From positions 1-48,574 of IMG/VR virus record IMGVR_UViG_3300025886_000042: a stretch of 48,574 nt of DNA; one strand, written 5' to 3'. The notes below the pieces were generated by a model. That model searched no databases and was not told the DNA's origin. It saw only the letters and a list, made by a program, of their open reading frames with translations. This document shows, piece by piece, positions 15,918 through 48,574 of the stretch. Made by a program: the position numbers and the translations under genes. Position 1 is the first letter of the stretch; each line of letters begins with the position of its first letter. The stretch comes from a virus.

Positions 15918-15933
15918 GTTTTTATTTTAAAAG

Positions 15934-16005
15934 AGCGGGTGACTGGATTCGAACCAGCGACAATCTGATTGGCAACCAGAGACTCTACCACTGAGTTACA
16001 CCCGC
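15934..16005 (-). tRNA. tRNA-Gly (anticodon GCC)
   Basis: A full cloverleaf of 72 nt. The acceptor stem GCGGGTG pairs with CACCCGC, the D arm includes AGTGGTAGA, the anticodon stem TCTGG/TCAGA encloses loop TTGCCAA with anticodon GCC, and the T arm has GGTTCGAATCC. CCA is not encoded and must be added. It reads GGC and GGT codons. It follows tRNA-Ala by 12 bases and is probably cut from the tail-gene transcript. Confidence 0.95.
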
Positions 16006-16017
16006 AAATTTTAAAAA

Positions 16018-16093
16018 TGGTGGAGATGAGGGGACTCGAACCCCTGACCCCTTGCGTGCAAGGCAAGTGCTCTCCCAACTGAGCTACACCCCC
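16018..16093 (-). tRNA. tRNA-Ala (anticodon UGC)
   Basis: A full cloverleaf of 76 nt including an encoded CCA. Acceptor GGGGGTG pairs with CATCTCC through two G-U pairs, the D arm has AGTTGGGAGAGC, the anticodon stem CTTGC/GCAAG encloses loop CTTGCAC with anticodon TGC, and the T arm has GGTTCGAGTCC. It lies five bases after the last tail gene. Confidence 0.96.
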
Positions 16094-32400: not shown

Positions 32401-35400
32401 GAGACCAAGATTGAGCTTGTAGGGCTTCGCCAATGTATTAATGGCATACGCTGATCCAGAATACGATCTAGCAGCGCCGGACATAGAATATAAAATTGGT
32501 CCTTTGGCATTATTGTAATTTGTTGCTATATCAAGGATTGATTGTCTATCTTCGGCGTTAGACCGTTCTTTTCGTTGATCTTGCCATAGACAATTAGCGC
32601 TGCTTGTCGCTGGAATGGGCGCATGGCCAAACTTCCAATTATATTGAAGTTCGCCTATCCCTAGTGCGTTACCCTCTGTAGAGCTAAGTCTAGTCGTCAA
32701 AGGAAATTTGTTTTGATATTTATTTCTTTCAAGGATATGGCTTTCTATAGTATTGGCTATTCTCTCTGAATGTCGGACAGATGCAGGGAAAAGCTGGGTT
32801 ACCATGTCAGTAATAGCGTCATCAATCCATTTATAATAATTTGTGAATCGATCAAAGTCTAAATCTGATTGTACAGTTCGGAAAAAGGTTTCTCTCATCT
32901 TTTCCAAATGCCTATAGCGTCCGCGATAGCGTTCTACAGATTGTCCAATTAAAGTATTAAATTCTACTGCTGATGAAAAAAGATCCAACATTTCTTCTGA
33001 TACAATTTGATACATGCTCTTTTCAAGAGAATAAAAGTTGTCGCTTACATCATCATCGGTTATGAAATAAACTTGCTTTTCATCTTGTATAAAAATATTA
33101 TCTGAGGTAAAAGAAAATTCTGGTAGTTCTTTCTTGCTGGTATATACTAACTCTTGTTTTACGAAGGAGGTTTGAGTAGCACCATAGCTAATTCCTGTTC
33201 CTTCGTGGTTTCTGCGTATGATGCCATCAATCCAACCATAAATGGTGTTGGTGGAACCAGACGATAAGTCAGCCACTTCAAATCTTGTGGAAGCGTTAGA
33301 GCCAGTTACTTGGTCAAAGTCCCAATTTAAAGCCAATAAATCAGAACGAGGTATAGCTGTTCCGGTTAAATTTAATGTCCAGAGAGTAGCATTTCTTGTG
33401 GGGTTGTCTACTCCAAAATTTGTTACATCTTGAGCATGAGCTTTAACATCTGCGTCGCTAATATAATCAAACCAATATTTACAAGCACCAAACTTAAGAT
33501 CAGTTGCCGCAAGAACAGAACCAGAAAAGTTTTGTCGATGAGCGCCAACATAAATTCTTTTGGCATTTGAAAGGAATGAAGAGCCCGAGGCATAATTCAA
33601 ACTGGCTGTGGCATTAAATGAATGCCTTACACTTCCAAACGCATTGTTAACACCATAAAAAGATAGTTCATAAGTAGGATTTGATGAGGTTAAAGCAGAA
33701 CCAGCCACACCATAGTTAACAGGTTTGACTCTAGCGGCTAAAACCCATCGATTATTGTCATAAATGTCATCGTAGTAGCTTGAACTAAGGTTGATAGTCC
33801 CATCTTGGTTAGTAAGTAAAAACTTTGCTCTATTTGAGTTAATTTCATCTCTAATGAGATACATTTGTAGGTTGGCGACTTCATTTTCAGCCCAATCATA
33901 ATCATTGTCGTTTGCTTGGTGAAATCCACCGATAGAAGCTGAAACAAATGGAGTGCCAAAATATCCTTGATCAATTGATCTCACTTTGTAGGGGATGACA
34001 GTATCAATCTCTAATGTAAGAGCATTAAATCGTTCTAATTTTGGAGCCCCAGAGCCAGTTATAAATGATCTAGCAATGACAGAGGAACTTTGGAATGAAG
34101 ATCCACTAAAATAATTGATAGCATTATTATTGATATAAGTCTTTGTAATACTCGAATCTTTGAAATTGTCATTAAAATAATGAGTGCCGCCGTCCGTATA
34201 GACGCTCAGCTTTACTAATTCATCATCAATGCCGAAACAACGCAACAGGTTTCGGAGTGACTGTTCGGTTCCTTTAGATTTATAAATGCCATCGAGATTA
34301 TTATAAATATTGTGGTAGATTAGATTTTTAATATTATCTACATTGTCCTCAAACTTTATGTTATTTAAATCATTATTGTCGTAATATTCAATAACATCCG
34401 AATCTACAAATAATTCGTTTGTAATAAAGCCTCTGCTTTCCAAGAGCCGATTGGCGAATGGTAGGGGTTTTAACGATGAAGATAGATAATTTTTCTGTGT
34501 AAGTTGAGGTAAAATTTTAATTTGAGCATAAAGAGTATCAAAATAAGAAGAAATAATTTGATATAAAAACTTAATATCTTTATTGGTCATCTCATCATTA
34601 GATCTCAAAAATGACGGAACTCTCTTATAAAGATAGGTTGTATTTCGAAGATCGTATTTACTACCACTGGTTTGCATTTCGCTGTATAGAGAACTTACCA
34701 AAGGATTGGTTCGATAAATAATTGGATCGCCGCGCTCAACTGAAACAGAGGCTGATGTGAAACAAGACCCAGTATTTCTACCAGCGGCTGTATAACCTGT
34801 CCATGCGCCGTTAGTTAAGCGTCCTGAATAGTCTAAAACCTTGCTATCGATTGAAGCAGTTGTGGTTATACCTTCATTGAATTTATAATAGCAGCCTAAC
34901 GCTGTATTATTAAGTTCGGTATTTGCTCCACCGTCTACTGGTCGGTACCAATGTAAATTAATTTCTCTTGAAGTCCTTCGGCTTTTCCAAAACCTAAATT
35001 CATCCATATCAGCAATCAGCTTACCAGCATATTTTAAATCGTTTTGGTCTCCGGTTGTTCCCGAGGGAGATGATTGGAGTGCTCCGACATAGGCATTTGT
35101 TCGGCCAGTGAAAGCACTTACTCCATATGGACCCACTCTTTGTTCATTATTTAAGACTCCATCAACATAAAAATAAAGCCTTACACCAGCAGATTGTGAT
35201 AAGATAGACAAAGCATAATGATGCCAGTTGCCGTCTGCTAGCGAAGAAGTTGTAAATGATGATGATGCGAGACTTTGATTTACAAAACCTGTGGTTCCAC
35301 TCATAAAATTTAAACGAATAGGGTTGGTACCACCATCGGCGGGGCCTGAACCAGTAAGATAAATGGTTAAACGACCATAGTCAGCGGATGAAGAGAGTTC

Positions 35401-36030
35401 ATTATTCCAAATATCTACAATAGTTTCTTTTTCAGTTGATCCAACAATGAATTGATCTTTGTTTAACCACCACTCTATAGTTGTACCTGACATGGGGTTG
35501 ATAAGAAAATTTTGTGTTTGGTCGGTTGAAGCATTATAAATAACAGATTTATCAAAGTTTTTATAAAGCTGGCCGGTAGCCATACCTGCTGAAGCTGTGT
35601 GGAGACCACCAAAGGCAGAAATATATTCATAATCTGAAGTAGATGAGGGTCGTCCCCAACCTTCAGTTAAAACACTAGTTCCATAGCCACTTGCGTTAAA
35701 GGTAATATACCCAGTTGACATGGGATATTTCTTTTCAAAAAGCCATCGGTCTAAATAGGATGAAGAAAGTTGGAATGATAATTTTTCTTTACCTGAGCCA
35801 TCGTAGGGATACTCTTGATAAATTCGATTTATTGAACTAGAATAATATAACTCTGCTGATCCAAATTTTATAAAATTATTAGGGTCTGAAAAATCCAGTA
35901 AAGGTACAAAAGTTGCATTATCTTCTATCTTAGTATCTAAAAATTCAGGAGATTCTATGTTTATACTTTCTGAATTATAGGAACTAACTGCTGCGATTTT
36001 ATTTTTATCAAATAAACCCTTAATAGTCAT
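29461..36030 (-). CDS. Giant tail/baseplate protein with LamG-like domains (2189 aa)
   Basis: This protein carries at least two concanavalin/LamG-like folds: one at about residues 175-350 (TIEWWLNKDQ ... GNWHHYALSILSQS ... LYFYVDGVLNN ... DEFRFWKSRRTSREI) and one at about 1665-1840 (YAWSGWILRPSN ... DQWTHVGIVLNSS ... LTMYINGVSAS). A third candidate lies at about 700-860 (NRWVLAARVKP ... RIYVGAHRQNF). Such domains usually bind glycans or proteins. Residues about 470-615 (SNDEMTNKDIKFLYQII ... DGIYKSKGTEQSLRNLL) resemble the P2 gpI / T4 gp7 type segment that joins wedge to tail fibres. It follows gp6 by one gene, where T4 has gp7. It likely serves both baseplate assembly and host contact. Confidence 0.7.
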   Translation of the reverse strand: MTIKGLFDKNKIAAVSSYNSESINIESPEFLDTKIEDNATFVPLLDFSDPNNFIKFGSAELYYSSSINRIYQEYPYDGSGKEKLSFQLSSSYLDRWLFEKKYPMSTGYITFNASGYGTSVLTEGWGRPSSTSDYEYISAFGGLHTASAGMATGQLYKNFDKSVIYNASTDQTQNFLINPMSGTTIEWWLNKDQFIVGSTEKETIVDIWNNELSSSADYGRLTIYLTGSGPADGGTNPIRLNFMSGTTGFVNQSLASSSFTTSSLADGNWHHYALSILSQSAGVRLYFYVDGVLNNEQRVGPYGVSAFTGRTNAYVGALQSSPSGTTGDQNDLKYAGKLIADMDEFRFWKSRRTSREINLHWYRPVDGGANTELNNTALGCYYKFNEGITTTASIDSKVLDYSGRLTNGAWTGYTAAGRNTGSCFTSASVSVERGDPIIYRTNPLVSSLYSEMQTSGSKYDLRNTTYLYKRVPSFLRSNDEMTNKDIKFLYQIISSYFDTLYAQIKILPQLTQKNYLSSSLKPLPFANRLLESRGFITNELFVDSDVIEYYDNNDLNNIKFEDNVDNIKNLIYHNIYNNLDGIYKSKGTEQSLRNLLRCFGIDDELVKLSVYTDGGTHYFNDNFKDSSITKTYINNNAINYFSGSSFQSSSVIARSFITGSGAPKLERFNALTLEIDTVIPYKVRSIDQGYFGTPFVSASIGGFHQANDNDYDWAENEVANLQMYLIRDEINSNRAKFLLTNQDGTINLSSSYYDDIYDNNRWVLAARVKPVNYGVAGSALTSSNPTYELSFYGVNNAFGSVRHSFNATASLNYASGSSFLSNAKRIYVGAHRQNFSGSVLAATDLKFGACKYWFDYISDADVKAHAQDVTNFGVDNPTRNATLWTLNLTGTAIPRSDLLALNWDFDQVTGSNASTRFEVADLSSGSTNTIYGWIDGIIRRNHEGTGISYGATQTSFVKQELVYTSKKELPEFSFTSDNIFIQDEKQVYFITDDDVSDNFYSLEKSMYQIVSEEMLDLFSSAVEFNTLIGQSVERYRGRYRHLEKMRETFFRTVQSDLDFDRFTNYYKWIDDAITDMVTQLFPASVRHSERIANTIESHILERNKYQNKFPLTTRLSSTEGNALGIGELQYNWKFGHAPIPATSSANCLWQDQRKERSNAEDRQSILDIATNYNNAKGPILYSMSGAARSYSGSAYAINTLAKPYKLNLGLDAPVHGGINYNESKDREFVYNATYIHGPVSLEYPKGIPQNVMVVGVGDGQGVEPFVNCSDELAPNQKRKWNFDAVMGRFATGFKPEARAGLDYEYKVKGSIYWPTNVMSGNVKSGYQKKVVETFKSGTIITNIHADTFSPTNEIGLQSPFTNAWVGGHQSRHVDLNKYSSLNTTPNNLDAWDTRPEAWRLLFRECGNASVASGSLSGSADGAMGFVGPDYGGPYPDYNRKYAVRYREERVKRPVNLKNIQTTTASVVQGNFTNNYEVISTFGTYGNSPILKEATGSLLPHPIAENLPATTNYQTLMAQTTGAYGNVFGNFASPFGTGSAENNRQYVKKRTSGVAGQYASGTVFSVAPYDVVTVDDQLKLKTASGGTYNIYISGGVETGPVLVRTGSSNEGFWDDIVSAVDSGDYTNTTYVSGGGVISDALLIKAGFGAALRNDLEVDNPLNLFSPSNTDGYAWSGWILRPSNQAAQQRTIFAIENIADGRSKMTSYINSGGDFLAVQVGTENGAGSYLGSSIWTYWGPNKEGFENVHDDQWTHVGIVLNSSSVPTDTSLTMYINGVSASIATPSFTGVARFYSGSSMTMYAGQNGFAGGSPPQRQQWTGSFSEWSFMTGGAPNSATMKSLYNFGYQWESGMSAQSVPGLGAHWMMGGTGSVGTDATISTRTTIYDQTGNGFNITGGVDPGNTPLTFVTQRTTALSGTVENLRTPTTASFTLTASSKTSLINGALLTVGTTMILNGTSSDSGWYDLGSLTNGVSPIAEIKAQSNIIEIQRDDLTGSDSIIRTRFSAPGGPEINTRGYLDIGSQEFSAYNAMPYRNLTVLSSGSGEHGTIRVDSQLGKRDGLQTMLRRHMGKFGIDSQFAASYNTSAPSASYTKIPRNTMVVVRTGSLIIKANYDNEYVTRAIPAQDYGYAWVTSSLGQELSPRIAGEQLVFGYWPVDGTLSASANVPWRSNGFDTALNYPTSSAITGIKL

Positions 36031-37465
36031 ATTTATTTACCTTGAATTTAAATTCTGAAGGTTGTTCTACATACGATCCAATTGCCGAATCATAAAGCGA
36101 GAAATGGATTCCATAACTATACCCAGCTTCAAGCATTGACATATCAAAGTCAAAATAATTTCCCGATACATCGTAAGAAAGCATTGTTGAATATTGGCTA
36201 CCTGTTCCATAGGGGACCACAACTTGATCATCTACGGTACGAGTAATTTGATATGAAGCACTTTCAAAAACAAGTGTAGGAACTGTAGATTGAGCTACAG
36301 TGTAAATATTTGGAGACCAGCCCTTAGTTCTGGCAAAAAGTCTAAATCGAGCGTTCTGGGTTGGATAATATAGGGTCTGTTGGTTAGTTACGCTTAAAAT
36401 ATAAGTATTTGTAAGCGAATAATCTTGGGCCACTAATTGATCGGTTGAAACAGATCCAGTATGATACTGCGTATAAGATCCTACAGATCCAGTATACCAT
36501 ACATCATAAAGTAAAGAGGAAGTGGTTTCTATACATACGGAGGCTGAATAAATCCCAGTAGATACCCATCCGCCAGTGACTGGTGTACTTAAACATAGAG
36601 TTTCTGCTGTTGTTGTGCTACCAGTAGAAGCATAAAGATCTAGAAATAATTCTCCCTGTTCTACTCCGGGAATATTAGTTAAGTTGCCACGCACAAAGTT
36701 ATATAAATATAAGGTGTTTAAATTATCATTCGCTGGAGCAAGTGATGAAGAAGTATAAAAGTTACCTCTATTATCTTTAATAGATGAGTCCCATCTTACC
36801 TCTAGAGTGGGTCGCTTAAACCAAAACTCTGAGTCTCTTCCAAAAAACTTCTTAGTATAGTAAGAGATTTGTGAGTCTTCAAGGCTAGGTGGTAATTTAA
36901 TATGAAATCCATAATTGTCTTTTGTACCAGCCAGCCATTGTTCAACTAAAGTAGTAACATCCACTTTCATGTCTTCGGTTCCAATAGGAAACTCTGCTGT
37001 AAATGCTGGGTCTGCGTGGAAATCTCCACCCTCCGCTGACCAAGAAGTAGAACCAGATCGTCTAATCCAGTTAGATCCTACTTGATCATAAGTTAAATCA
37101 GTATAGTTTACCATGTCTATACCATTTCCCTCTTGCCATGGACTAGAAACAGCATAAATATTAAGATTATAATCTCTTGGAAGACTCTGGGAGTGTCTCG
37201 CATTATATATTTGTAAGTAAAACTTACATTCTCCCGAAACTGGTATAGAATTTGAAGCTCTATCGGCAGCGATTGCCGTTGTATCAAACTCAAGCATAAA
37301 TCTACATAGCTCAGAAGATGATGTGGACTCTTGACCATAAATAGAAAAAACTTCTAATATGTCAGCTTGGCCCATAGATGAACCAGTTCCTCTGGTTACT
37401 AGGTTAAATTGGTAAGCATTGGTAATGGTATTGTCTTTTGTAGCAAAATATCTTTTTATAGCCAT
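36020..37465 (-). CDS. Tail protein with DNRLRE-like carbohydrate-binding fold (481 aa)
   Basis: The N-terminal 230 residues are a beta sandwich with LCRFMLEFDT, YLQIYNARHSQSLPRDYNLN, VSSPWQEGNGIDM and VTTLVEQWLAGTKDNYGFHI. This order, a stabilising strand, W(x)EG and a closing VxxWxxGxxxNyGf motif, is typical of DNRLRE/CBM96-type domains found in cell-surface and phage adhesins. The C-terminal half is Ser/Thr/Tyr-rich beta structure. It overlaps the LamG giant by 11 bases and shares one base with gp6. I infer a surface or baseplate-peripheral protein with possible glycan binding. Confidence 0.6.
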   Translation of the reverse strand: MAIKRYFATKDNTITNAYQFNLVTRGTGSSMGQADILEVFSIYGQESTSSSELCRFMLEFDTTAIAADRASNSIPVSGECKFYLQIYNARHSQSLPRDYNLNIYAVSSPWQEGNGIDMVNYTDLTYDQVGSNWIRRSGSTSWSAEGGDFHADPAFTAEFPIGTEDMKVDVTTLVEQWLAGTKDNYGFHIKLPPSLEDSQISYYTKKFFGRDSEFWFKRPTLEVRWDSSIKDNRGNFYTSSSLAPANDNLNTLYLYNFVRGNLTNIPGVEQGELFLDLYASTGSTTTAETLCLSTPVTGGWVSTGIYSASVCIETTSSLLYDVWYTGSVGSYTQYHTGSVSTDQLVAQDYSLTNTYILSVTNQQTLYYPTQNARFRLFARTKGWSPNIYTVAQSTVPTLVFESASYQITRTVDDQVVVPYGTGSQYSTMLSYDVSGNYFDFDMSMLEAGYSYGIHFSLYDSAIGSYVEQPSEFKFKVNKYDY

Positions 37466-39264
37466 TATCTTGCGACTCCTCTGATGTCTGAGTTCGGGTA
37501 CTTTAATTCAAAAATAGCATTGCCGGGCGCCTTATAAAAGGTTCCATCTCTAGAAACCAATTGTTTAAAAGGGACTGACGACGCAGAGTAAATACCACCA
37601 GATTTATTAAAAACTTTAACCTTTATAACATCAGCTACGCCTTCAACTTTATTAATAACACTAAATAATTGAGAGACATAAATTGGCTCTCCAATATAAA
37701 ATTGTAAATCGTAGTCATTTAAGATTCGAGATTTTACTCGATTAATAACATCTGTAGGATCACTCGTTCGAGTCACAGAGATTTCAAAGTCAATTCCAAA
37801 ATTAATTATCTTAGTATCTAAAATATCAATTACATCATTAAGCATCTTATAATCTTGCATCCAAAATTTTAGATTAGATTTAATGGTGCTATTAGTTGTT
37901 ACCAATTTTCCATTTGCGTTTTCTGAGATGACATATAAAGAAAGTCGCCTATTTGTTGCGCTTGGGTCATTTACCATATTAATTCGCTTTATTGTTCCAA
38001 ACTTAGCTGGCATTTTATAACAAATTGTTTCATAATCTTGTTTAGTAACTGCTCTATTCTGAGTAGCATAATAATTTTTAGATCTTATTTTAAGTTCTTC
38101 ATTAGTTACGCCGGTTGTACCTGCGCTTATTGGCTCTGGATTACTAACTTCTAATGAAGAAGCAACATCTTGCTTCATGCTATTATTTAATGAATCTGTA
38201 TTGGTAAATTCTACAATTCTACCAATAACTGTATTTAAAGAATTAACTGGGACGCTGTTTGTAATAGCGTCGTTAAAACGATAAACAATATTTAAAGTGG
38301 TTCCATTCGGAGAAAGGCCGAGCTTATTTGTTTTTAATAATTGTGAAGGATCGAAGGAACGGCTTGAAATATATCTTTTTCCGTGCATTTGAATAGCAAC
38401 ACGAGAAGGCTCTACAATTCCTGTAGTATCATCATCTTCGGAACCAAATCCAAATTGAAGATAAGTTCCAGTATCATCTTGATCTAAAATAAATCTTCTT
38501 GCCGCAACATAGGGCTTTAATATGTTTCTAACACCATCTGCCGCAGCATTTTGGTTTGTTGTTTCCAAATAAACTACTTCTTGAGATAAATAATCCACTT
38601 GATAATATTGATTTCCATTAGAATCTTTTACTGAAATCACATCTGATACTTCGGGGCCTCCAATTCTTACGCGGCGGAACCGCTGAAAGCCCGAATCATT
38701 TAAGTTAGCTGTTGAAATAGCATACTTTCCTGATGAGACTTGTCCATAGGCGCGAATAGCAAAATAAGTTGTTGCGCCCGTAGTTACATTAAATCGAGCA
38801 GCAACAACTTCATTTATGGGGTCATCAAATCTAACATCTTCAGTTAAAATAAAGTTAGCTCCATTCGCAGAAGAAAATTCAGTTCCTCTTTTGACAGTAG
38901 GATAATAAGCTGTATCAGGGGCCGTTCCGTTCGCATTGGCGGGAACTAAAACAAATAATGAAACAGTCCCAAAAGCAATGGGTCTTCCAAAGAATGAATA
39001 GCCTAGGCTTTTAGCATGTTTACGAATATTGTCAAATTCTATAGATGTATCAATAAAAGACTCGTTTACTTGATAATCTAGATAATACGAGAGGATATCA
39101 CACCCGTAAGAGACCGAATCTAATACCAGTGAACCAAAGGCAACTGAACTAAAATCATTATAGTTATCAGGGTAGTATCTTTTGGCATGATCAACTAAGT
39201 CTTCTTTAATTGTTTTAAAATCACGACTCGTGTATTTAATCGGTACTATTTTCTTATTGGCCAT
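37465..39264 (-). CDS. Baseplate wedge protein (T4 gp6 / baseplate J-like)
   Basis: A 599-aa protein with the hallmarks of the gp6/J family: N-terminal KYTSRDFKTIKEDLVDHAKRY with FSSVAFGSLVLDSVSY and YYLDYQVNESFI, and a C-terminal LRIKSRNYYATQNRAVTKQDYE-like segment (NEELKIRSKNYYATQNRAVT, about residues 385-405) plus DVINRVKSRILNDYDLQFYI. T4 gp6 is 660 aa. Gp6 dimers form the inner ring of the baseplate that triggers sheath contraction. AGAGGA precedes the ATG. Its gp25-like partner is the gene just upstream, the usual arrangement. Confidence 0.88.
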   Translation of the reverse strand: MANKKIVPIKYTSRDFKTIKEDLVDHAKRYYPDNYNDFSSVAFGSLVLDSVSYGCDILSYYLDYQVNESFIDTSIEFDNIRKHAKSLGYSFFGRPIAFGTVSLFVLVPANANGTAPDTAYYPTVKRGTEFSSANGANFILTEDVRFDDPINEVVAARFNVTTGATTYFAIRAYGQVSSGKYAISTANLNDSGFQRFRRVRIGGPEVSDVISVKDSNGNQYYQVDYLSQEVVYLETTNQNAAADGVRNILKPYVAARRFILDQDDTGTYLQFGFGSEDDDTTGIVEPSRVAIQMHGKRYISSRSFDPSQLLKTNKLGLSPNGTTLNIVYRFNDAITNSVPVNSLNTVIGRIVEFTNTDSLNNSMKQDVASSLEVSNPEPISAGTTGVTNEELKIRSKNYYATQNRAVTKQDYETICYKMPAKFGTIKRINMVNDPSATNRRLSLYVISENANGKLVTTNSTIKSNLKFWMQDYKMLNDVIDILDTKIINFGIDFEISVTRTSDPTDVINRVKSRILNDYDLQFYIGEPIYVSQLFSVINKVEGVADVIKVKVFNKSGGIYSASSVPFKQLVSRDGTFYKAPGNAIFELKYPNSDIRGVAR

Positions 39265-39306: not shown

Positions 39307-39723
39307 CTATTCTATTTTTAATCTAATGGCATCAAATTGGTCAATTTGAGGAACATAATAAGAAATTGCCAGATAAAGAGAACTTAAATCATCGGGATTG
39401 GATTCGGTGGTAATATTGTTTATTGTTATTGCGGGTATGTAAGTGGCTACTTGTTGGTAGATACGAGCAGAGATTTGAGATTGTGTGGCTCCGCTATTAA
39501 ATTCAAAAAGAAATTGTTGGATTCCAATGCCTCTTTGAAGATCTGTGTTTATTTCTCCCGGTATTGTAAAGAGCAAAAGTCTAAAGTTTTGTTTTAACTC
39601 TTCGCGAGCATCCCTTATATCATCATCGGGTGATGTCGCATTATTCATATTTGGCCCATAAGTGATGTCGCTTAGCCAATCATTTTTTTCATAAAAATCT
39701 TTTAAAGTTTTTGAAGTTCCCAT
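39307..39723 (-). CDS. Baseplate wedge protein (gp25 / GPW-like)
   Basis: A 138-aa protein of the gp25 family (T4 gp25 is 132 aa). Recognisable features are DAREELKQNFRLLLFTIPGE, then the Arg-Gly motif LQRGIGIQQFLFEF and the C-terminal strand pair ITINNITTES ... LYLAISYYVPQID. Gp25 joins the wedge to the sheath and forms the nucleation point for contraction, working with gp6 and gp53. The gene starts directly after the 2458-aa protein (ATG adjacent to its TAA). A 42-base gap separates it from gp6. Confidence 0.93.
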   Translation of the reverse strand: MGTSKTLKDFYEKNDWLSDITYGPNMNNATSPDDDIRDAREELKQNFRLLLFTIPGEINTDLQRGIGIQQFLFEFNSGATQSQISARIYQQVATYIPAITINNITTESNPDDLSSLYLAISYYVPQIDQFDAIRLKIE

Positions 39724-42700
39724 TTAATCATCCTCCGGAGTAAAAAAGCTTCCGTATTCTCCCGCACAGTCTTTTCCATCTTTATCAAATGGTCTATCTC
39801 TCATTCTATTTCTTCTCCACCATGGGACTAAACTTCTATTAACACCAAATATATTTGGCATTACATTTTTAAGAAATTGTCTTAGTGTAAAGTCTTCATC
39901 ATCAGTAGATTCAAAATCATTAGATCGATAAAATCCTACAAAGAGCCGTCGTGCCTCGCCCTTAGAATCTGTTAATACCTCTCCTTTCCAAGACTCATCA
40001 AATCTTTCCATAACATCGTCAAAACTTCTTTCGCTAGCGTCAGTTCCGATGGCTGGTATAAAAGAGTGATTCATATAAATTGAAGCAATACTGGATACTT
40101 TTTGGATTCCAAAAATGTAATTCATAAGTAATTTGTATTTAGGGGTCAAAACAAGCTTATCAACATAACACTTTAAATCTTCGCCCATGTTTGGTTCATT
40201 AAACTTTAATTCTTGGAATTTAACATCTTTATAATCATATTCATAAGATACTAATGGTATTACTGGATTTCCGCCAATAAGGTAAGATTTTTCACGCTTT
40301 ATAACATCTCTATCAAACGAAGCTGGGTTCATTTGAGAAGCTAATGTAGCATTCGGTATTAAACTAAGTCGGACACCGAATTTTAAACCTACTGTTCCGG
40401 CATAAGGTTCTGGAGGAGGTGCTACTGTAGCATTACCAAATAAATCAGAAATGTTTAAGTCTGAAGAGATAGTTTGGCTAAAGGGTTGAGCCCATGCGAC
40501 AAAATCATCTATATTACAAACTCCTTTCAAATTCTCTGGTCTTTCTCTAACTAACCTTACATATTCAGGTTCGTCGGCAGAAGGTGTTTTATCAACAGTT
40601 CGTATATACTTTTCAATGAGAAAACCACTAGAGGCTTCTTCAGGAAGTAAATCTGATAGTTGTACAACACTTGGGTCACTAAAAGATTGTATAATGTCTC
40701 CGTATTGAAGGTCCAATTCGCCATCTACTATAGGTTTTTCAATATCATAAAGACCAGCTTTTATATTAGAACCACCGGTGAGTTTTTTATTACTTAAAAT
40801 GTATTTTGGAAGATTAGAGACATAAGGTCTTAGCGCTGTATTCTCAGCTAATCTTACAGAAAGTTTTTCAAGCTCAAGCTGTATCAAAGCTTTAAGTAAT
40901 ACCATGCTCGCTTTTCTGCCCTTATTGAGAGCATCCATTTTAGTCGCAAATCGCAGTTGTCTCAATGACATTAATCCAAGACCAACTCCAATAGTTCCCA
41001 AAACTGCGCCACCAACGCCAATCACGGCTGGGAAAGTTAAAGCGGCAATTCCGCCAATGAACGCATTTAAAACGGTAGCCTTTTGAATTTCGGGATCTTC
41101 AAAATCTATTTCTTTTACTCTTCTAATAACCTCAAGATCATCTTTATTAGGATACCTATAATCTTGTTGTATGGTATTTATTACTTCACGAGCTTGATCA
41201 ATTTCGGGAGTTGAGGATATTTCTCCGCTCTTTATTTTTCTAACTGCTGATTGTACTGCTTGCTCTAAGAAAACAAGCCAATAATTAAATGCCTGATATC
41301 TTCCCACATTAAAAAAGGTTGTTTCTTGTGAGAGACCTTGTTCCATCTCTTCGGCTATCATTTGGGCAAATCCAGCATCATAATTATTTTCGTTATATTC
41401 TAAAAAGGAAAAAATAGATGTTGCCTTTAAAAGAGCCTCTGAACAATAGATTCTTATGGTTGCTGCCACCGTTACATCTAAGTAAGCTAGTGTATTTGGG
41501 TCAGCAATATGATCATATGGTATGTGCTTTACGCAATCTGGGTCTGACCCTAATCGGCTATCAGGCTCTATGCTACTTTCAATCTTTGAGACTTCTTTGG
41601 ACATTGCGTTAAAATCTACCAAATCAGTTCTTTTGGGCTTACAACCATCAATCTCAGGAACAATAACTTGAGCTAGGCCAAGCCATCCTTGATAAGAGCC
41701 CGGCTCAACATAAAAAGCTGGGTTAGTATAGGAGCCGCCATAAGCGTTTGGATCAAGAAAATGAACACGAGGATTCTCAGTAGCAGATTTTCCTAATACC
41801 ATGTCATCATTTTCATAAGTATATTCCCATGTATCCTCATCATCGGGATCAGCCTCGGGGTTTACATAAAGAAGATCAGATGTTGTAATCGGATCAGCTT
41901 CATATCCAAATTGAAACCCTTGGGGTATTTCGCCATCTTGAGTTTCTACAAGAGAATCAGATATATCTTTAAAAATCTTGCTTTCGAATTGATTATAAAA
42001 AGAGGCAACCGCACCAAATTGTAAATTAGGATGAGAAGCAGATGCTAATGACTCATTTAAGTAATTGGTCAAAAGCATGCTTTGATAGGTGTGTTTATGA
42101 GTTTGAAGTTCTTTGTTGGTTACATCATAGTTTTGAATAAGAAGTGATGATGTAACATCAGGTAAAATAGAATTTATAACTCGATATTGAGGTATTTTTA
42201 CTATTTTATCTTTATCTTTCCTGTCGGCGTCTACACTAGCGTCGGTTTGTTGTTCTAGAGTGTTATTGGACCCTTCATAAATAATTCCTACTTTATACCC
42301 AAAGTTTTTCTCAATAAAAACCTTCTGATCACTTTGAACAGTATAGGCAGTTTCAATGTTGAAATTAACTTTGAGATCATTGTCATTATTAAATGTTAGC
42401 TTTAAATCAGGCTTTTTTACATAAGGTTTGAACATAGAGACTTGTCTAGTTCCAAGGCCAAGCCACCCGACCTCGATTGATCGTGTTAAGTTTCTTCGTT
42501 TACGAGAAAACTCAAAATTGGTGGTAAGCATAAAATCATTATCTAAAAAACTATTCCTAGCGTTTATGCCAATAGTCTCGGGGAAAACACCAATCGCTTC
42601 ACCATCGGAAAGCGCTGTAAAATAGAACTCACCAATTCGAGTTTCTTCAAAGCGAGTCTTTTTATTTTCCCAATCTGTTTCTGAATTGGCGTAGTCTATT

Positions 42701-45700
42701 TGAAAAATCAAATTATCTGTTTTTCTTTCGTGAACCTTGAGTGGAGCATTGAAAGTATCTGCTAAAATATTATCTAAAAAAGAGTCTCTTTTACCAATCA
42801 TATCGTTTATATATGAGATTTGTAGACTTCTATAGACTCCATTAGCATCCTCTATTCTTTTTGCCTTAGCTTCTTCCGGTAAAAATTTAGTAATGGCGTT
42901 GCCGTCATCACAATCCGGATCAGCCTTAAGTGCTTCATCTATCGCATCTTGCATAGCTGAGGTAGGACCAGCAGCCATAACAGAAGCAATTTCAATTAAG
43001 TCATTATTTGCTCGGTCATTTACTTTGTCAAGATATTCACTAGCTTCTTCTGGAGACATTCCAGCATTTGTCAAAGTATCTTGTCTTACTTGGTTCCACT
43101 CGTCAAGCTGATCTTTAGTTAAACAAATACTTGGGTCAACTGGTATGTCTACCGGAAAGGTAGAAAGTTGATCTTTTATTTGTTGTCTCTGGGATGGAGT
43201 CATGAAGTTGCCCAAAGAGCCAAATATTTGTGCTACCTTAGACGGGTCATCAAAAGCAAACGCATATTCAGGATGACGCAAAGTAATTGTTGAAGAAATT
43301 CTTTTTAAAGTCTGTGGATCTTGCTGTCCATCGTTAGCAGTAATCAATAATTTTAATTCTCGACGAGACACAATATTAGAAATGTCTTGAGACAATTGTT
43401 TATGAGACCCCTTGAGACTGGTCGGAGTAACTTGTTTAGCTAATGTATCAAGAGCTTCTGGTGTTAACCCTATAGATGTTAATAATGAAGAAGTTATATC
43501 ATCTAATTCATCATCATCTGAGGCATCTCCGCAAAATAGCTCATTTACCACAGCATTAAAATTGGCATTTGGGCCTTTGACTGCTTCTGCCGCAAACCTA
43601 CCGGTTGCTTCAAGAGCTTTACAAAGAGCATTTTCTAATGTTAATAATACTTTTAAAACAAAAGCACTAAGAACCTTTACAATCGTTTCTTCCATGGCAG
43701 CTTCAATGGCATCTCGCAATAATTGAAAAATTAATTGCTTGATAGAAGTAACATTCGGAAGATTACGAAGGTTTGGTATAGCTATTCTTCCTCGTTCCTT
43801 ACAAACATCAAAAGATAGGGTACTTAAGAAAGATTTAATTGGAGGATAAACAAAATGAACATTAGGACAATCAAAAGAAGCAATCAATCTCGCAATCAAC
43901 TTAGCTCCGGGAACCTTATCAAGAGCAGCAAAAAGCTCTTGGATTTCAGCAACATCCATAATTGCTTCAATATAAGCATCAAAAATAGCTTCTTGAGCAG
44001 ATCCTAATACTTTTCCAATTGATCCTTGCTCAAATTGATCAGGACTGTTAATTGCCACTATTCTTTTAGCATTCTGATCTTCAATCATTTGGTCCTTTTC
44101 TTCAGAGGACATATTCTCCCATACAGCTAATTGGCCTGTATTTTCAAGACCCGTGGTTTGGATTTTTTCTTCTTTTAATTTCTCAAGCTCAAGTTTGGTT
44201 TTAACTAATAATTCATCCAGTTCTCTTGTCAACTCATATGTGTCTCGGTTTATTTGGCCCCTAAGATATGAAAGTTGTTCAGGCCCTAATGATGCTCCTG
44301 TTTCCATCTGATCTAAAACATCTGTTTCAACTATCGGATGGCCGCTATAAGTGGCCCCAAGATCGATTGTGCCCCAGCCTTTATCTTGATAAATATACAC
44401 AGCCTCTAAGTTGGTTGGGATTGTTATATTAATCTCATCCTCTGTGTTTCGAATTTTTTGATTAACTGATTCTACACTACTTTCTAACGAGGTCATTAAG
44501 GAGGTTTGTTGTTCTTCGTTGCTAATAACACCACCAGCAACATAACCCTCTTCCCATGGGGCTGGCATATTTTTAAAATCTTGTTGTACTTTTGCTCTAA
44601 TTTCTTCTTGAACTCTTGGATCTAATCCTGCCAACAAAGTTTGCATACCGTTTGGGGCCATAGCGTTAAGGGCTGCTCTAACAATTGCTCGAAGCGCCGT
44701 ATCCAAATCCATGCCGCCCAAAAGGCATTGAACTGCTTTCTGGCCTAATTTATTTAATCCACAAATACCTAATCGAGCTAAAAAGTTTCGAAATCCTTTC
44801 GCGGCTTCTCCTTTTAATGCGCCTTTGCCGGGACCAATACCATCCTTCATTTTTTGTACAGGATTTGTAATGTCAAATCCTCCAAGCCCATAATCTTCAA
44901 AATCTTGTTGAGACAAGAAAAGAGAAACTAAAGAATTCTCAAAATCAAATGAGTTTAAGACAGCTTCTCGACCTGCTTTGACAAAGGGGTCTTCTCCCCT
45001 AAAAGCTCCTCTTTCTCGGTGTCTATTTTGTCGTCGCTGTTGTCTTTGATCTCTCTTAAGGCCACGAAGCGCTTGATTAAAACTTCGCTTATTAAGGGTT
45101 GCTTCTGTAGGATCTATTTGGTATGTACTAAGTTCATTGAAATTAGAAATTTCCTCTAATTGTTCCTCAACAGATTGTTTTGTCCTTTTCTGCGATTGTA
45201 TTTCTTGTCGTGCTAATTTGTCACCCGCTTTTTCACTAGGTCTTGATGAATCAATAGAACTTTGTAATTCTTCTCTTTGGTCTGAGCGACTGGCTTGGGC
45301 TGCTCTTTTATCTTTTTCTAGATCTTTTATTAAATCTCTGTTAAAATCAATGGCGTCTTCTTTAGTTTTTATACTTACTTCAAACTGTGTAATTACAGCT
45401 TCAAGGGACTCAATTATTTCTTTCTTTTGTTCTCGGGGTATATCTTGCTGTTGAACCGCATTTATTTCTAATTCAGTGGCAGCAATAGCATCCTCATCGC
45501 CCTGTTTAATGTCGGCTTGTATATCTATAATTTCTTTTTGTAATTCATTGATGTGATTACTAATCTCGATTGAAGCATCAGTAGCGAGCATGTCGCTTCT
45601 TTGATCGGATAAGCTTTGTTCCCCTTGTTCCGCCAATTGAGCATCTCGGGATTGATAATCGCCCGTCAATGTTTTACAAGCGTTTTGATTCCATTTATAT

Positions 45701-47100
45701 GAAATGGCGTCGAAAAAACCAAGGGTAGTCTCTAAGAAAAAGTCTCTCAATCCGTTTACGCCACCGAGATTATCTACTACACATCCGAGGATACTTTGAG
45801 GCATACCCGGATTGGCTGAGGGAACACCCTTTCCATATTGAATTGACAAGTCAGGAAAAGTATATTTAACAACAAAATCAACCCAAGGGGGTGTTACTTT
45901 AGCTGTTAAATCATTATCCATTGCTATGATGTTGGCTATATAGCCCATCAATGTTTGGTTACTAAATGGTGTTTTATAAGCCATCTCTTTGCCGAAATGG
46001 ACTTCTGGTCTCTCCAGTGAGGTCAATGAGATATTCTCGAATTGACAGCCCATTCCTTTGACTTTAATTTTGTCAATATGATATGGTCTCGATGGATTGC
46101 TTTGATCAAAGAAAATTTTTATGTCCTCGACACTTCGAGGAGTACTAATGGATCTCAATTTCCATCGGGTTTGGGATTCAATAAGATATTCAAGCCCTTC
46201 AATGAATTGATCTAATTTGGCTGTGTAATTTTTACAATAATAGTCTTGGAATGCTTCTCCGAGCCCTCCAAGGCCCTCTGCATCTTGCTGTACAAGAGTT
46301 CGTTGAAAGGCTAATCGTCCTTTTTCTGTTTGCCACCAATAGGCTTGATATTTTCCAAAGATTCCTAACGCTTGCTTAAGCCGTGAAATCTGTCCTTTTA
46401 GCTTTACACCATCTAGAGTAATTGTTTTTGGTGTATCGGGTTTTTCAACCGGTTGCGCTTTCGGAACTCTGTCAAAAATAAAGGCTGGGATTGTAACTTG
46501 AACCAAGATAGGGTCGCCGCCTAAAGCAGTTTGATAATCCGAAATATAATAATCATTGGATTGCGCGTATAATTCCAAAGCAGTAGGATTAAATACCTCT
46601 CCGCCCTGTATTTCTAAATCTTTCGCTACAGGTCCGGGAATGTCGTATACATTAGAAACGCCATTAGGAAGTACAGTTTGTAATACCTCAATCGCTCTAG
46701 CAATATCTCTATTTGACTCTCTCATAAGATTTTCAAATTTGTCAGGATTATTTGGAAAAGCAAATATAATCTCATTAGAAATTTGTTTATTATAAAATCT
46801 CAATAATTGTAATACGCCAAACTGTTTATATGTATCGATTAACTGTTTTACCGTTAGATCGGCTTCTCGCATTTGAGCCACATCGTAAGATAGGCCATCA
46901 TTGTTAACTGCTAATGTAATTGAATACATACAGTTCGATTCATCTAAAAAGGGTTCTTCTTGTTCCCACCAATTAGGAGAAACAAAATCTGGATTTGGAA
47001 TACAAGTCGGACAAACCTTCGCTGATTCTTCATCTTCAGGAAGAGTTTTACAAACATTAATATACTTATCTACAAATTCTGAGTTATTTTCTGTGCTCAT
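39724..47100 (-). CDS. Giant structural baseplate/tail protein (2458 aa)
   Basis: I do not recognise a whole-protein family. The N-terminus contains VCPTCIPNP and a tryptophan cluster. Residues about 483-657 form a coiled coil (NELQKEIIDIQADIK ... EAVITQFEVSIKTKEDAIDF), followed by an Arg/Gln-rich stretch (RDQRQQRRQNRHRERG). The middle is helical with Leu/Glu repeats. A Gly-rich hydrophobic stretch at about 2015-2043 (FPAVIGVGGAVLGTIGVGLG) looks membrane-capable. It lies between a spike-like baseplate protein and gp25, where T4-type phages keep hub or wedge proteins, so a hub/wedge scaffold is likeliest. Coiled coil plus hydrophobic segment would also suit a tape measure, but the position in the baseplate cluster makes that less likely. 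Confidence 0.6.
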   Translation of the reverse strand: MSTENNSEFVDKYINVCKTLPEDEESAKVCPTCIPNPDFVSPNWWEQEEPFLDESNCMYSITLAVNNDGLSYDVAQMREADLTVKQLIDTYKQFGVLQLLRFYNKQISNEIIFAFPNNPDKFENLMRESNRDIARAIEVLQTVLPNGVSNVYDIPGPVAKDLEIQGGEVFNPTALELYAQSNDYYISDYQTALGGDPILVQVTIPAFIFDRVPKAQPVEKPDTPKTITLDGVKLKGQISRLKQALGIFGKYQAYWWQTEKGRLAFQRTLVQQDAEGLGGLGEAFQDYYCKNYTAKLDQFIEGLEYLIESQTRWKLRSISTPRSVEDIKIFFDQSNPSRPYHIDKIKVKGMGCQFENISLTSLERPEVHFGKEMAYKTPFSNQTLMGYIANIIAMDNDLTAKVTPPWVDFVVKYTFPDLSIQYGKGVPSANPGMPQSILGCVVDNLGGVNGLRDFFLETTLGFFDAISYKWNQNACKTLTGDYQSRDAQLAEQGEQSLSDQRSDMLATDASIEISNHINELQKEIIDIQADIKQGDEDAIAATELEINAVQQQDIPREQKKEIIESLEAVITQFEVSIKTKEDAIDFNRDLIKDLEKDKRAAQASRSDQREELQSSIDSSRPSEKAGDKLARQEIQSQKRTKQSVEEQLEEISNFNELSTYQIDPTEATLNKRSFNQALRGLKRDQRQQRRQNRHRERGAFRGEDPFVKAGREAVLNSFDFENSLVSLFLSQQDFEDYGLGGFDITNPVQKMKDGIGPGKGALKGEAAKGFRNFLARLGICGLNKLGQKAVQCLLGGMDLDTALRAIVRAALNAMAPNGMQTLLAGLDPRVQEEIRAKVQQDFKNMPAPWEEGYVAGGVISNEEQQTSLMTSLESSVESVNQKIRNTEDEINITIPTNLEAVYIYQDKGWGTIDLGATYSGHPIVETDVLDQMETGASLGPEQLSYLRGQINRDTYELTRELDELLVKTKLELEKLKEEKIQTTGLENTGQLAVWENMSSEEKDQMIEDQNAKRIVAINSPDQFEQGSIGKVLGSAQEAIFDAYIEAIMDVAEIQELFAALDKVPGAKLIARLIASFDCPNVHFVYPPIKSFLSTLSFDVCKERGRIAIPNLRNLPNVTSIKQLIFQLLRDAIEAAMEETIVKVLSAFVLKVLLTLENALCKALEATGRFAAEAVKGPNANFNAVVNELFCGDASDDDELDDITSSLLTSIGLTPEALDTLAKQVTPTSLKGSHKQLSQDISNIVSRRELKLLITANDGQQDPQTLKRISSTITLRHPEYAFAFDDPSKVAQIFGSLGNFMTPSQRQQIKDQLSTFPVDIPVDPSICLTKDQLDEWNQVRQDTLTNAGMSPEEASEYLDKVNDRANNDLIEIASVMAAGPTSAMQDAIDEALKADPDCDDGNAITKFLPEEAKAKRIEDANGVYRSLQISYINDMIGKRDSFLDNILADTFNAPLKVHERKTDNLIFQIDYANSETDWENKKTRFEETRIGEFYFTALSDGEAIGVFPETIGINARNSFLDNDFMLTTNFEFSRKRRNLTRSIEVGWLGLGTRQVSMFKPYVKKPDLKLTFNNDNDLKVNFNIETAYTVQSDQKVFIEKNFGYKVGIIYEGSNNTLEQQTDASVDADRKDKDKIVKIPQYRVINSILPDVTSSLLIQNYDVTNKELQTHKHTYQSMLLTNYLNESLASASHPNLQFGAVASFYNQFESKIFKDISDSLVETQDGEIPQGFQFGYEADPITTSDLLYVNPEADPDDEDTWEYTYENDDMVLGKSATENPRVHFLDPNAYGGSYTNPAFYVEPGSYQGWLGLAQVIVPEIDGCKPKRTDLVDFNAMSKEVSKIESSIEPDSRLGSDPDCVKHIPYDHIADPNTLAYLDVTVAATIRIYCSEALLKATSIFSFLEYNENNYDAGFAQMIAEEMEQGLSQETTFFNVGRYQAFNYWLVFLEQAVQSAVRKIKSGEISSTPEIDQAREVINTIQQDYRYPNKDDLEVIRRVKEIDFEDPEIQKATVLNAFIGGIAALTFPAVIGVGGAVLGTIGVGLGLMSLRQLRFATKMDALNKGRKASMVLLKALIQLELEKLSVRLAENTALRPYVSNLPKYILSNKKLTGGSNIKAGLYDIEKPIVDGELDLQYGDIIQSFSDPSVVQLSDLLPEEASSGFLIEKYIRTVDKTPSADEPEYVRLVRERPENLKGVCNIDDFVAWAQPFSQTISSDLNISDLFGNATVAPPPEPYAGTVGLKFGVRLSLIPNATLASQMNPASFDRDVIKREKSYLIGGNPVIPLVSYEYDYKDVKFQELKFNEPNMGEDLKCYVDKLVLTPKYKLLMNYIFGIQKVSSIASIYMNHSFIPAIGTDASERSFDDVMERFDESWKGEVLTDSKGEARRLFVGFYRSNDFESTDDEDFTLRQFLKNVMPNIFGVNRSLVPWWRRNRMRDRPFDKDGKDCAGEYGSFFTPEDD

Positions 47101-48041
47101 GTTATATACACGCTATCGGAAAGAATAAAATTAGATCCAAAAATTGGAAGGTCGTCTTTTACATAGTTAAATTCATCTATTTTATAGTTGATATTGTCTA
47201 TAATACCCCTAATCTCAGTCAAAATAACTTGTGGTAAGGTTTGAGCATTTAGTCCGTTAAGAATAGTGCTCGGTAGAACCACACCACCCGGACTCGGATG
47301 AGTATGAGCAGCCAAAACAATGCTGGTTGCTCTCATTCTATCATTGAGTCCATCAATTTCGCCAGCTAATCTCTGAATATATCCAAGCATTTTGTGTATA
47401 AATTCAACTAAATTCTGTCCTTTGACAGCAGGTTGTAAACCTTCATAGTCATCTGCTATTAAATCAATGCGTCCACGAGCGGAGATAGTTCCACCTGATG
47501 AATTTTTTTCATCTTCAATCTCGGGAGCTAGAGCAGAGCCAGCATAAATTTTGACATGTTCTCGCCCAATAATACGCACATGGTCAGCTTTTATTCCTAT
47601 TCCAGAGCGATTCTTTGAAGACATACCAGAACCAACTGGAATGCCAAAAATTTCATCTATGTTGGTTCTTTGCGATACATATACGGTTGCGGCATCTGTT
47701 ATTAGGTTTGGGCCAGTTAATGAATCTTGGCCTTTGGCTATTGAAGATCCGGCAGCTAATCCAGCAATTAAGTGAACACGGCCACAGCTTCCACCGCCAG
47801 CACCTTTACCAGAACCAAGAGAATAGGGTCTATCTCTTCCTAAAATAACAAAAGCATTGTTCTCTCCATACATAACATTTTCACAAATTGCCTCATCGTA
47901 AGTTGGAAAAGATTCTTGTAATTTTGTATGATACGGACCAGAAAACTCGCCTGATTGAATAATTGCTTTGGTTTTATTGTTCGCAAGCGAAAGATCTTGA
48001 GCGTCAATTGCTTTCTTTTGTGGTGTTGATGTTTCTGCCAT
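47097..48041 (-). CDS. Baseplate spike-like or hub protein (314 aa)
   Basis: The middle of this protein is repetitive beta structure with short strands, NRSGIGIKADHVRIIGREH followed by VKIYAGSA and ISARGRIDLIADD, typical of beta-helix or spike-type baseplate proteins such as gp5 C-terminal or gpV tips. A following helix (EFIHKMLGYIQRLAGEIDGL) and a VLAAHTHPSPGG motif resemble tail-spike proteins with metal-binding histidines. It lies next to the tail lysozyme gene, as T4 gp5 lysozyme and spike are joined in one protein. Here the enzyme and spike functions appear split. It overlaps the giant protein by four bases (ATGA). Confidence 0.6.
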   Translation of the reverse strand: MAETSTPQKKAIDAQDLSLANNKTKAIIQSGEFSGPYHTKLQESFPTYDEAICENVMYGENNAFVILGRDRPYSLGSGKGAGGGSCGRVHLIAGLAAGSSIAKGQDSLTGPNLITDAATVYVSQRTNIDEIFGIPVGSGMSSKNRSGIGIKADHVRIIGREHVKIYAGSALAPEIEDEKNSSGGTISARGRIDLIADDYEGLQPAVKGQNLVEFIHKMLGYIQRLAGEIDGLNDRMRATSIVLAAHTHPSPGGVVLPSTILNGLNAQTLPQVILTEIRGIIDNINYKIDEFNYVKDDLPIFGSNFILSDSVYIT

Positions 48042-48574
48042 TACGGAGTTCCTTTGTCAGCTATGTAAGCATCATAAATTTTTTGAGCGGCTTCTGCTCT
48101 TCTCTCAGCTTGGATTTCTTTATTTCTGGGTCTTTCAAAGTCTAGTGTCATTTTACTCGCAAATGCTTTGGGATCAGTGGTGGCTATCCCAAATGTAGAT
48201 AGTTTTTGGGCAATATAAGTTAATTGTTGCGCTCCATTGTCCTGACTTATAAATAACCCAAAGCTTTCTCTTCCTGTTTGTGTCCATTGGCCATTAGAAA
48301 TCCACCCCTTATCTTTTGCTATATTAAATCCTGCTCCATCCTCGGGGCAAACATTCAATTGAAAGAAACCGTGAGAGCAGTTGCCATCGATGTTGCGAAG
48401 TGCTTTGGTTTGATCTGCATAAATACTAGAAGGATCACCGTGAGCATCATGATTGAATGCTGATTCTGCTGCTGCGTTAGCCGCAATACCTGCCAAAGCC
48501 GCATCCGAATATCCATTAAAAACAGTCAATGCTCTCAATCTCTTCATAAAACGAAGCGCAGCAGCAGCGTCAAA
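48041..48574 (-). CDS. Tail-associated lysozyme, C-terminal part (5' end outside window)
   Basis: The frame is open up to the window edge: upstream of the Met at 48547 it continues as FDAAAALRF, which fits the same helix, so the gene is probably truncated by the window rather than starting there. The visible 178 codons show the tail-lysin pattern ALAGIAANAAAESAF (catalytic Glu in AES), CSHGFFQLNV, FISQDNGAQQLTYIAQKL and DFERP near the end. The family (phage lysozyme2-type) cuts peptidoglycan locally during DNA injection. It shares one base with the spike gene (TAATG). It is the most 5' gene here and the upstream part of the operon is missing. Confidence 0.78.
   Translation of the reverse strand, partial: FDAAAALRFMKRLRALTVFNGYSDAALAGIAANAAAESAFNHDAHGDPSSIYADQTKALRNIDGNCSHGFFQLNVCPEDGAGFNIAKDKGWISNGQWTQTGRESFGLFISQDNGAQQLTYIAQKLSTFGIATTDPKAFASKMTLDFERPRNKEIQAERRAEAAQKIYDAYIADKGTP

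Follow-up and report, generated by a model that had tools for sequence, protein, structure and literature searches.

The window analysed here, the whole of an IMG/VR virus record, is 48,574 bases long. Among its large minus-strand open reading frames (ORFs) is one of 2458 aa at positions 39724 to 47100, whose product we call protein X. The plus strand of this interval is crowded with stop codons. The original prediction had proposed the ORF with no strand given; the ORF is real and is read from the minus strand. In the order of transcription the genes are a tail lysozyme gene cut by the window end, a gene for a 314-aa protein, X, gp25, a gp6-like wedge gene, and ORFs of 481, 2189 and 1318 aa. 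The genes around X are as follows.

48041..48574, minus strand: tail lysozyme, cut by the window end (Phage_lysozyme2, 1.6e-13)
47097..48041, minus strand: 314-aa gene upstream of X, putatively spike-like (a homologue precedes X in all 44 loci with flank)
39724..47100, minus strand: protein X, 2458 aa, ATG start (ORF calling and 48 distinct complete homologues)
39307..39723, minus strand: gp25, baseplate wedge (Pfam GPW_gp25, 35.1 bits against a cut-off of 27.2; PHROG search)
37465..39264, minus strand: gp6-like baseplate wedge, 599 aa (PHROG baseplate wedge families; 53% identity to the homologue in relative G001)

The 314-aa gene overlaps the start of X by 4 bases. The gp25 gene starts at the base right after the X stop codon, so that the two adjoin as had been predicted. 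The 314-aa product has no match in Pfam or PHROG. A weak likeness of its C-terminal motif to the same-slot genes of Flavobacterium phage vB_FspM_immuto_3-5A (Immuto) and Microcystis phage Mel-JY01 (hhalign probability 2-3%) suggests that it may be spike-like. These two are the nearest annotated phages by gp6 and terminase. Downstream of gp6, the 2189-aa ORF (29461-36030) bears a weak likeness to Laminin_G_2 (E 0.0033, below the cut-off). Two adjoining tRNA genes, for Gly (gcc) and Ala (tgc), lie at 15933-16093. The T4-type late promoter TATAAATA gave no useful sign, with 9 occurrences in the window against 5.4 expected and 8 of the 9 on the strand opposite the genes.

The X family and its place beside gp25

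Relatives were gathered by seven IMG/VR scans, in which the best-segment identity to the query used was mostly 25%-48%. The last scan matched 196 stretches, of which 111 were confirmed and 80 kept. A profile search of the loci yielded 113 X ORFs; 78 are complete and 48 of these are different, with lengths of 2016-2703 aa. Forty homologues were left at 93% identity. The alignment is full-length, with N- and C-terminal halves both conserved, and identity is 42-48% for close and 20-32% for distant members. Across its 49 rows the family has conserved ends and variable inserts. Two complete members, L125 (2703 aa) and L130 (2682 aa), have 2416 and 2407 residues outside the two arm regions described below, against 1831-2097 in the others; the excess is about 300 residues or more, and Pfam recognised no domain in L125.

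The whole of X has no match in Pfam or PHROG (best E 0.11 and 0.17). Pfam was run on whole X, 40 N-terminal halves and three whole relatives, and the PHROGs on whole X and 40 C-terminal halves. The C-terminal halves returned only eleven one-member PHROG hits (best E 0.018). Apart from the peptidoglycan-binding models considered below, the N-terminal halves gave mostly one-member Pfam hits, many of them to coiled-coil models (best E 2.3e-4), which are taken as chance or coiled-coil likeness. Tblastn with five full-length members found no relative in 50,697 phage records, and the best 60 of 202 matches of a sixth query (L008) lay only in or around its peptidoglycan-binding domain. In bacteria and archaea, at one genome per species, 40 stretches matched the pattern and none was confirmed as a relative of X. 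The sequence search of the PDB found no relative either. Among the titles and abstract openings consulted, none had a title about an X-like protein.

A likeness was found among the viral structure models of BFVD. Both pieces of the unnamed viral protein A0A516M7H3 match both halves of X: the C-terminal half at E 5.5e-48 (TM 0.63/0.68, 22% identity) and the N-terminal half at E 1.2e-15. This protein, presumably from an uncultured prokaryotic virus, carries no named function, so the X family is already present in a public protein set under no visible function name. The remoter BFVD matches, A0A1B1IUZ9 (E 2.7e-6 and 1.5e-5) and A0A516LBU8 (E 3.9e-5, C-terminal half), are unnamed as well.

Gene order links X to the baseplate. 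A gp25 gene lies directly downstream of X in all 48 loci with flank, and a 314-aa-type gene directly upstream in all 44 (profile searches, E 0.001 or better); seven of these loci served as seeds for the gp25 profile and nine for the 314-aa profile, window included, and both counts include near-identical contigs. The window is largely collinear with three relatives (G001, G003 and G004). That X is a baseplate-locus protein is supported by its adjacency to gp25. X has no PHROG, Pfam or PDB sequence match to the wedge proteins gp6, gp7, gp8, gp10, gp25 or gp53 and no clear fold match; as far as these comparisons go, it is not a recognisable wedge protein. The case for a baseplate role is built on gene order, because no solved baseplate protein matches X in sequence or fold.

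The nearest annotated phages show the same neighbourhood with a different occupant. Immuto and Mel-JY01 have gp25-like and gp6 homologues in the same order (the Mel-JY01 gene annotated as 'tail lysozyme' is read as gp25-like). Their gp6 proteins are 29-31% identical over 98-99%, and the large terminase of G001 is 45% and 43% identical to theirs. However, the slot before gp25 holds no X in either phage; it holds small proteins of 371 and 139 aa in Immuto and of 343 and 176 aa in Mel-JY01. Compared with the X profiles, these gave no convincing match. The 139-aa Immuto protein reached an hhalign probability of 11% and a profile E of 0.096, and a 416-aa frame of Mel-JY01, which holds the 1242-base gene after gp6, gave E 0.055. 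For want of a convincing profile or hhalign match, the same-slot proteins were rejected as homologues of X. The 371-aa Immuto protein that fills the slot (L137, 18021-19136) is annotated as RecN-like; by eye it has a coiled-coil look with hydrophobic stretches, and its similarity to X is not convincing. The uncultured, unannotated LR756508 is about as near (gp6 29%, terminase 39%), and the 41.9 kb of it that were searched with the X profiles gave nothing better than E 0.29. Because the slot lacks X in Immuto and Mel-JY01, X belongs to one uncultured clade and not to T4-like phages at large. It is clade-specific and found so far only in uncultured T4-like phages. The wedge protein gp7 of cyanophage S-SM2 (about 4150 aa; T4-type wedge gp7/gp8) is likewise very large and lies in the gp25-gp6 neighbourhood. 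However, gp7 follows gp6 whereas X precedes gp25, and the S-SM2 stretch contains no X profile match at E 1 or better.

The small separate proteins in the slot of the annotated phages bear on the suggestion that X is a fused hub, that is, the central hub itself, joining hub functions that are separate in other phages. Hub genes often sit between spike and gp25 genes, and X follows a spike-like gene and precedes gp25. However, no hub similarity was found by sequence (PHROG, PDB) or by fold search, which a diverged hub fold could escape. A hub gene of the family phrog_150 is present elsewhere in the 185-kb relative G001, in a module of sheath gene, two tube genes, hub gene and then an ORF of 847 aa. 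The fused hub is therefore not supported, and we consider it unlikely.

Conserved cysteines and predicted arms

X is rich in conserved cysteines. Of the 22 in the window protein, nineteen are each shared by at least 46 of the 49 rows, despite an identity of the N-terminal half to the window protein that falls to about 20%. They are residues 17, 30, 33, 57, 352, 440, 475, 780, 792, 1078, 1100, 1160, 1190, 1326, 1397, 1820, 1856, 2311 and 2445. Losses occur mainly in one group (L105, L108 and L131). Cys makes up 1.09% of X in G001 and 0-0.74% of the eleven other listed ORFs of that genome. The first four form a motif, and each is Cys in every covering row (50-51 rows).

46930..47052, minus strand: N-terminal four-cysteine motif, residues 17-57 (C17, CPTC at 30-33, C57), from the alignment

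A metal or a disulfide role may be envisaged for this motif, and both are possible for the cysteines of X.

Structure was predicted with AlphaFold2 in two models that leave out residues 1201-1258. Each alignment paired the relevant part of the window protein with 39 of the 40 non-redundant homologues (L006 was omitted, being close to L001). The features of the protein, in the order of its residues, are as follows.

45841..47013, minus strand: predicted N-terminal alpha/beta domain, residues 30-420 approximately (AlphaFold2, most blocks pLDDT 64-91)
45133..45612, minus strand: arm 1, predicted antiparallel coiled-coil hairpin, residues 497-656 (AlphaFold2 and PDB fold search; confident at 511-600)
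44998..45087, minus strand: Arg-rich patch, residues 672-701 (10 Arg in 30 residues, net +9)
44140..44520, minus strand: arm 2, predicted second hairpin, helices 861-906 and 940-987 (AlphaFold2, block pLDDT mixed, 44-83)
44284..44415, minus strand: arm 2 tip, about residues 896-939, the site of PG_binding_1 in relatives, with none here (alignment, Pfam, profile)
43579..43743, minus strand: predicted long helix 1120-1174 with a second hydrophobic peak at 1140-1158 (hydropathy, AlphaFold2)
39727..43326, minus strand: C-terminal half, residues 1259-2458 (AlphaFold2 pLDDT 78.1, pTM 0.76)
40963..41079, minus strand: hydrophobic Gly-rich loop, residues 2008-2046 (alignment, AlphaFold2, shuffles)

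The model of the N-terminal half is weak overall (pLDDT 65.3, pTM 0.39), and the weaker blocks of its alpha/beta domain are 141-160, 271-280 and 361-370. For the C-terminal model the best PDB match has E 0.56 and the best match against VIA has Z 4.6. The 1200-residue models were searched whole, and the absence of a convincing PDB fold match for the predicted structure is not proof of a new fold.

Arm 1 is a region of 160 residues with two long predicted helices, 497-551 and 556-656. Block pLDDT is 86-93 at 511-600, 62 at 501-510 and 72 at 601-610; beyond 610 it is 61-71 up to 650 and 41 at 651-660. In the PDB fold search, residues 493-656 resemble long-helix and coiled-coil proteins of a generic kind (Z up to 11.4), and this helical-hairpin likeness may reflect only a common arrangement. 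The heptad signal in the sequence itself is modest, with p 0.01 at 505-590 and p 0.04 at 560-640 (ten stretches, uncorrected); stretches 480-560, 600-700 and 650-710 were not significant. The predicted coiled coil of 170 residues thus reappears as the AlphaFold2 hairpin, and sequence periodicity taken by itself would be weak ground for it. The Arg-rich patch of the same prediction is real. Its binomial tail is 3.6e-7 for one of the 2429 30-residue segments. Eight close rows agree fully on several of its Arg residues, whereas 11 wider rows do not.

Both arm regions vary greatly in length. Between C475 and C780 members of the family have 70-440 aa, and at positions 853-1029 they have 9-430 residues; the remainder of the protein comprises 1831-2416. 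In nine of the 49 rows arm 2 carries a PG_binding_1-type domain (profile seeded from six of the nine), and Pfam on 40 members identified PG_binding_1 in five and PG_binding_3 in four. The domain matches a solved cell-wall enzyme fusion at E 1.4e-10. It aligns opposite residues 895-935 or so of the window protein, which are the end of helix 861-906 and the gap before 940-987. The nine rows fall in two groups of the tree (2 changes), and the branch of L015 and L016 is long. In these two members the domain is followed by a long helix-rich extra stretch, so that positions 853-1029 span 430 residues; their arm 1 is just 72. The window protein has no PG_binding_1 domain, by Pfam or by the profile of the relatives' domain, and its arm 2 tip is modelled at low confidence. 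The insert in the nine relatives is like the PG_binding_1 of cell-wall hydrolases, but in X it is an optional module only. In the nine relatives, we infer, arm 2 has an exposed tip that faces the cell wall.

The Gly-rich hydrophobic segment that had been noticed near residue 2030 is present. Residues 2008-2046 are 39 in number with no D, E, K or R and include 9 Gly. A run this long was obtained in 3 of 1000 composition shuffles, whereas the hydropathy peak of 1.97 (Kyte-Doolittle, 19 residues) was equalled or passed in 340 of 1000; what is unusual is therefore the lack of charge over such a length, and not the hydropathy by itself. The peak reaches 1.6 or more in eight of the 49 rows (the window, L012, L013, L014, L060, L078, L085 and L115). 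It stays below 1.6 in the other 41, many of which are clearly polar there. Gly/Ala-rich hydrophobic loops also occur in L012, L013, L060 and L078. The window clusters with L012 and L013 (SH-aLRT 94), and the trait requires 6 changes on the tree at a threshold of 1.6 and 3 at 1.85 (five rows). This tree was quickly built and has long branches, among them those of L060, L078, L014 and L120, whose places are unsure. With 3 changes at 1.85 the trait is patchy and not unique to the window. The C-terminal model renders this stretch (model residues 750-788) as two helices of 14 and 5 residues plus short strands, with block pLDDT 61-72. The second hydrophobic peak, at 1140-1158, is often the hydropathy maximum in relatives.

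These observations bear on the proposal that residues 2008-2046 carry X, or its C-terminal half, into the host membrane at injection. The rarity of the uncharged run and the similar loops of L012, L013, L060 and L078 speak in its favour, and one of the 40 N-terminal halves weakly matches Gly-zipper models (E 0.0093). However, the 41 rows below the threshold and a hydropathy peak within chance oppose it, and AlphaFold2 predicts short broken helices rather than a single membrane helix. A conserved membrane-spanning segment, as in a membrane-inserting ejection protein, was not found across the family. Because the stretch is a variable loop, hydrophobic in eight of 49 rows, membrane insertion cannot be the general mechanism of the family. 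It is the weakest part of the original prediction. Insertion may occur in the window's own lineage, which we judge quite unlikely. Residues 2008-2046 are most likely a lineage-specific loop that is dispensable for the shared function.

A probable baseplate protein with proposed envelope-facing arms

With moderate confidence, we read X as a structural component that an uncultured clade of T4-like phages builds into the baseplate of its contractile tail, with arms that face the envelope. It would be made from an operon of spike-like gene, X, gp25 and gp6, and would probably sit at the junction of the central spike complex and the wedges. X would be a cysteine-rich, largely helical scaffold from which the predicted coiled-coil arms project. 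The arm tips may be where lineages add envelope-binding modules, as the nine relatives do with a peptidoglycan-binding domain on arm 2. Most likely the arms would fix the baseplate to the cell envelope, or stabilise it there, as the tube pushes through. Presence in the virion, a place in the baseplate and an anchoring role are all inferred.

X could instead be absent from the virion and act as a non-structural factor in baseplate assembly. A giant assembly factor is conceivable, but the size of X, its strict place in the operon and the peptidoglycan-binding domains in nine of 49 rows fit a virion part better. This makes the assembly factor distinctly unlikely.

The original prediction also entertained a tape-measure-like component in an unusual place. 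X lies beside gp25 and not in the tail tube and sheath module, where G001 offers a likelier gene. The 847-aa ORF that follows the tube and hub genes there is Gly-rich, poor in Pro (1.2%) and free of Cys, and has eight hydrophobic segments (1.6 threshold). It has a homologue in G003 in the same order (31% over 781 columns). It has no PHROG match, so its naming comes from place and composition. It is likely the tape measure, and in G001 it lies about 70 kb from X. A 1532-aa ORF in the same module, with no PHROG match and no hydrophobic segments, is the less likely candidate of the two. A search for phrog_9570 in the records of eight relatives produced two marginal hits, both from a single record, and is not relied on. 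The search for the true tape measure thus gave a likely gene in G001 and G003; the window ends before its own tube module, and for its own phage the tape measure is extrapolated from these relatives. X itself was rejected as a candidate. That X is the tape measure is very unlikely and need hardly be retained: it has a long coiled-coil region and sub-threshold likenesses (PF06791 at E 0.11 for X and at E 0.019 for one of 40 N-terminal halves; phrog_1272 at E 0.04 for one of 40 C-terminal halves), but large portions of it are alpha/beta and globular, the two arm regions account for much of the variation in its length, and the likelier gene, itself with no PHROG match, has its homologue in G003.

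Returning to X as a structural baseplate protein with envelope-facing arms, a bolder version can be imagined, which we think improbable as a whole. X might be a new baseplate part, a giant adaptor between spike and wedge that grips the envelope by arm tips and loops that can be exchanged. A peptidoglycan-binding tip would serve some lineages and a membrane-touching Gly-rich loop others, the window among them, and the scaffold would be re-tooled for each envelope.

X, about 2000-2700 residues long across the family and with 19 near-invariant cysteines, adjoins gp25 in every relative with flank. It would be a large baseplate part, used by a group of uncultured T4-like phages, that the libraries searched do not describe. 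If its arms reach the cell wall, X would offer a direct way into the question of how contractile tails are held steady at the envelope.
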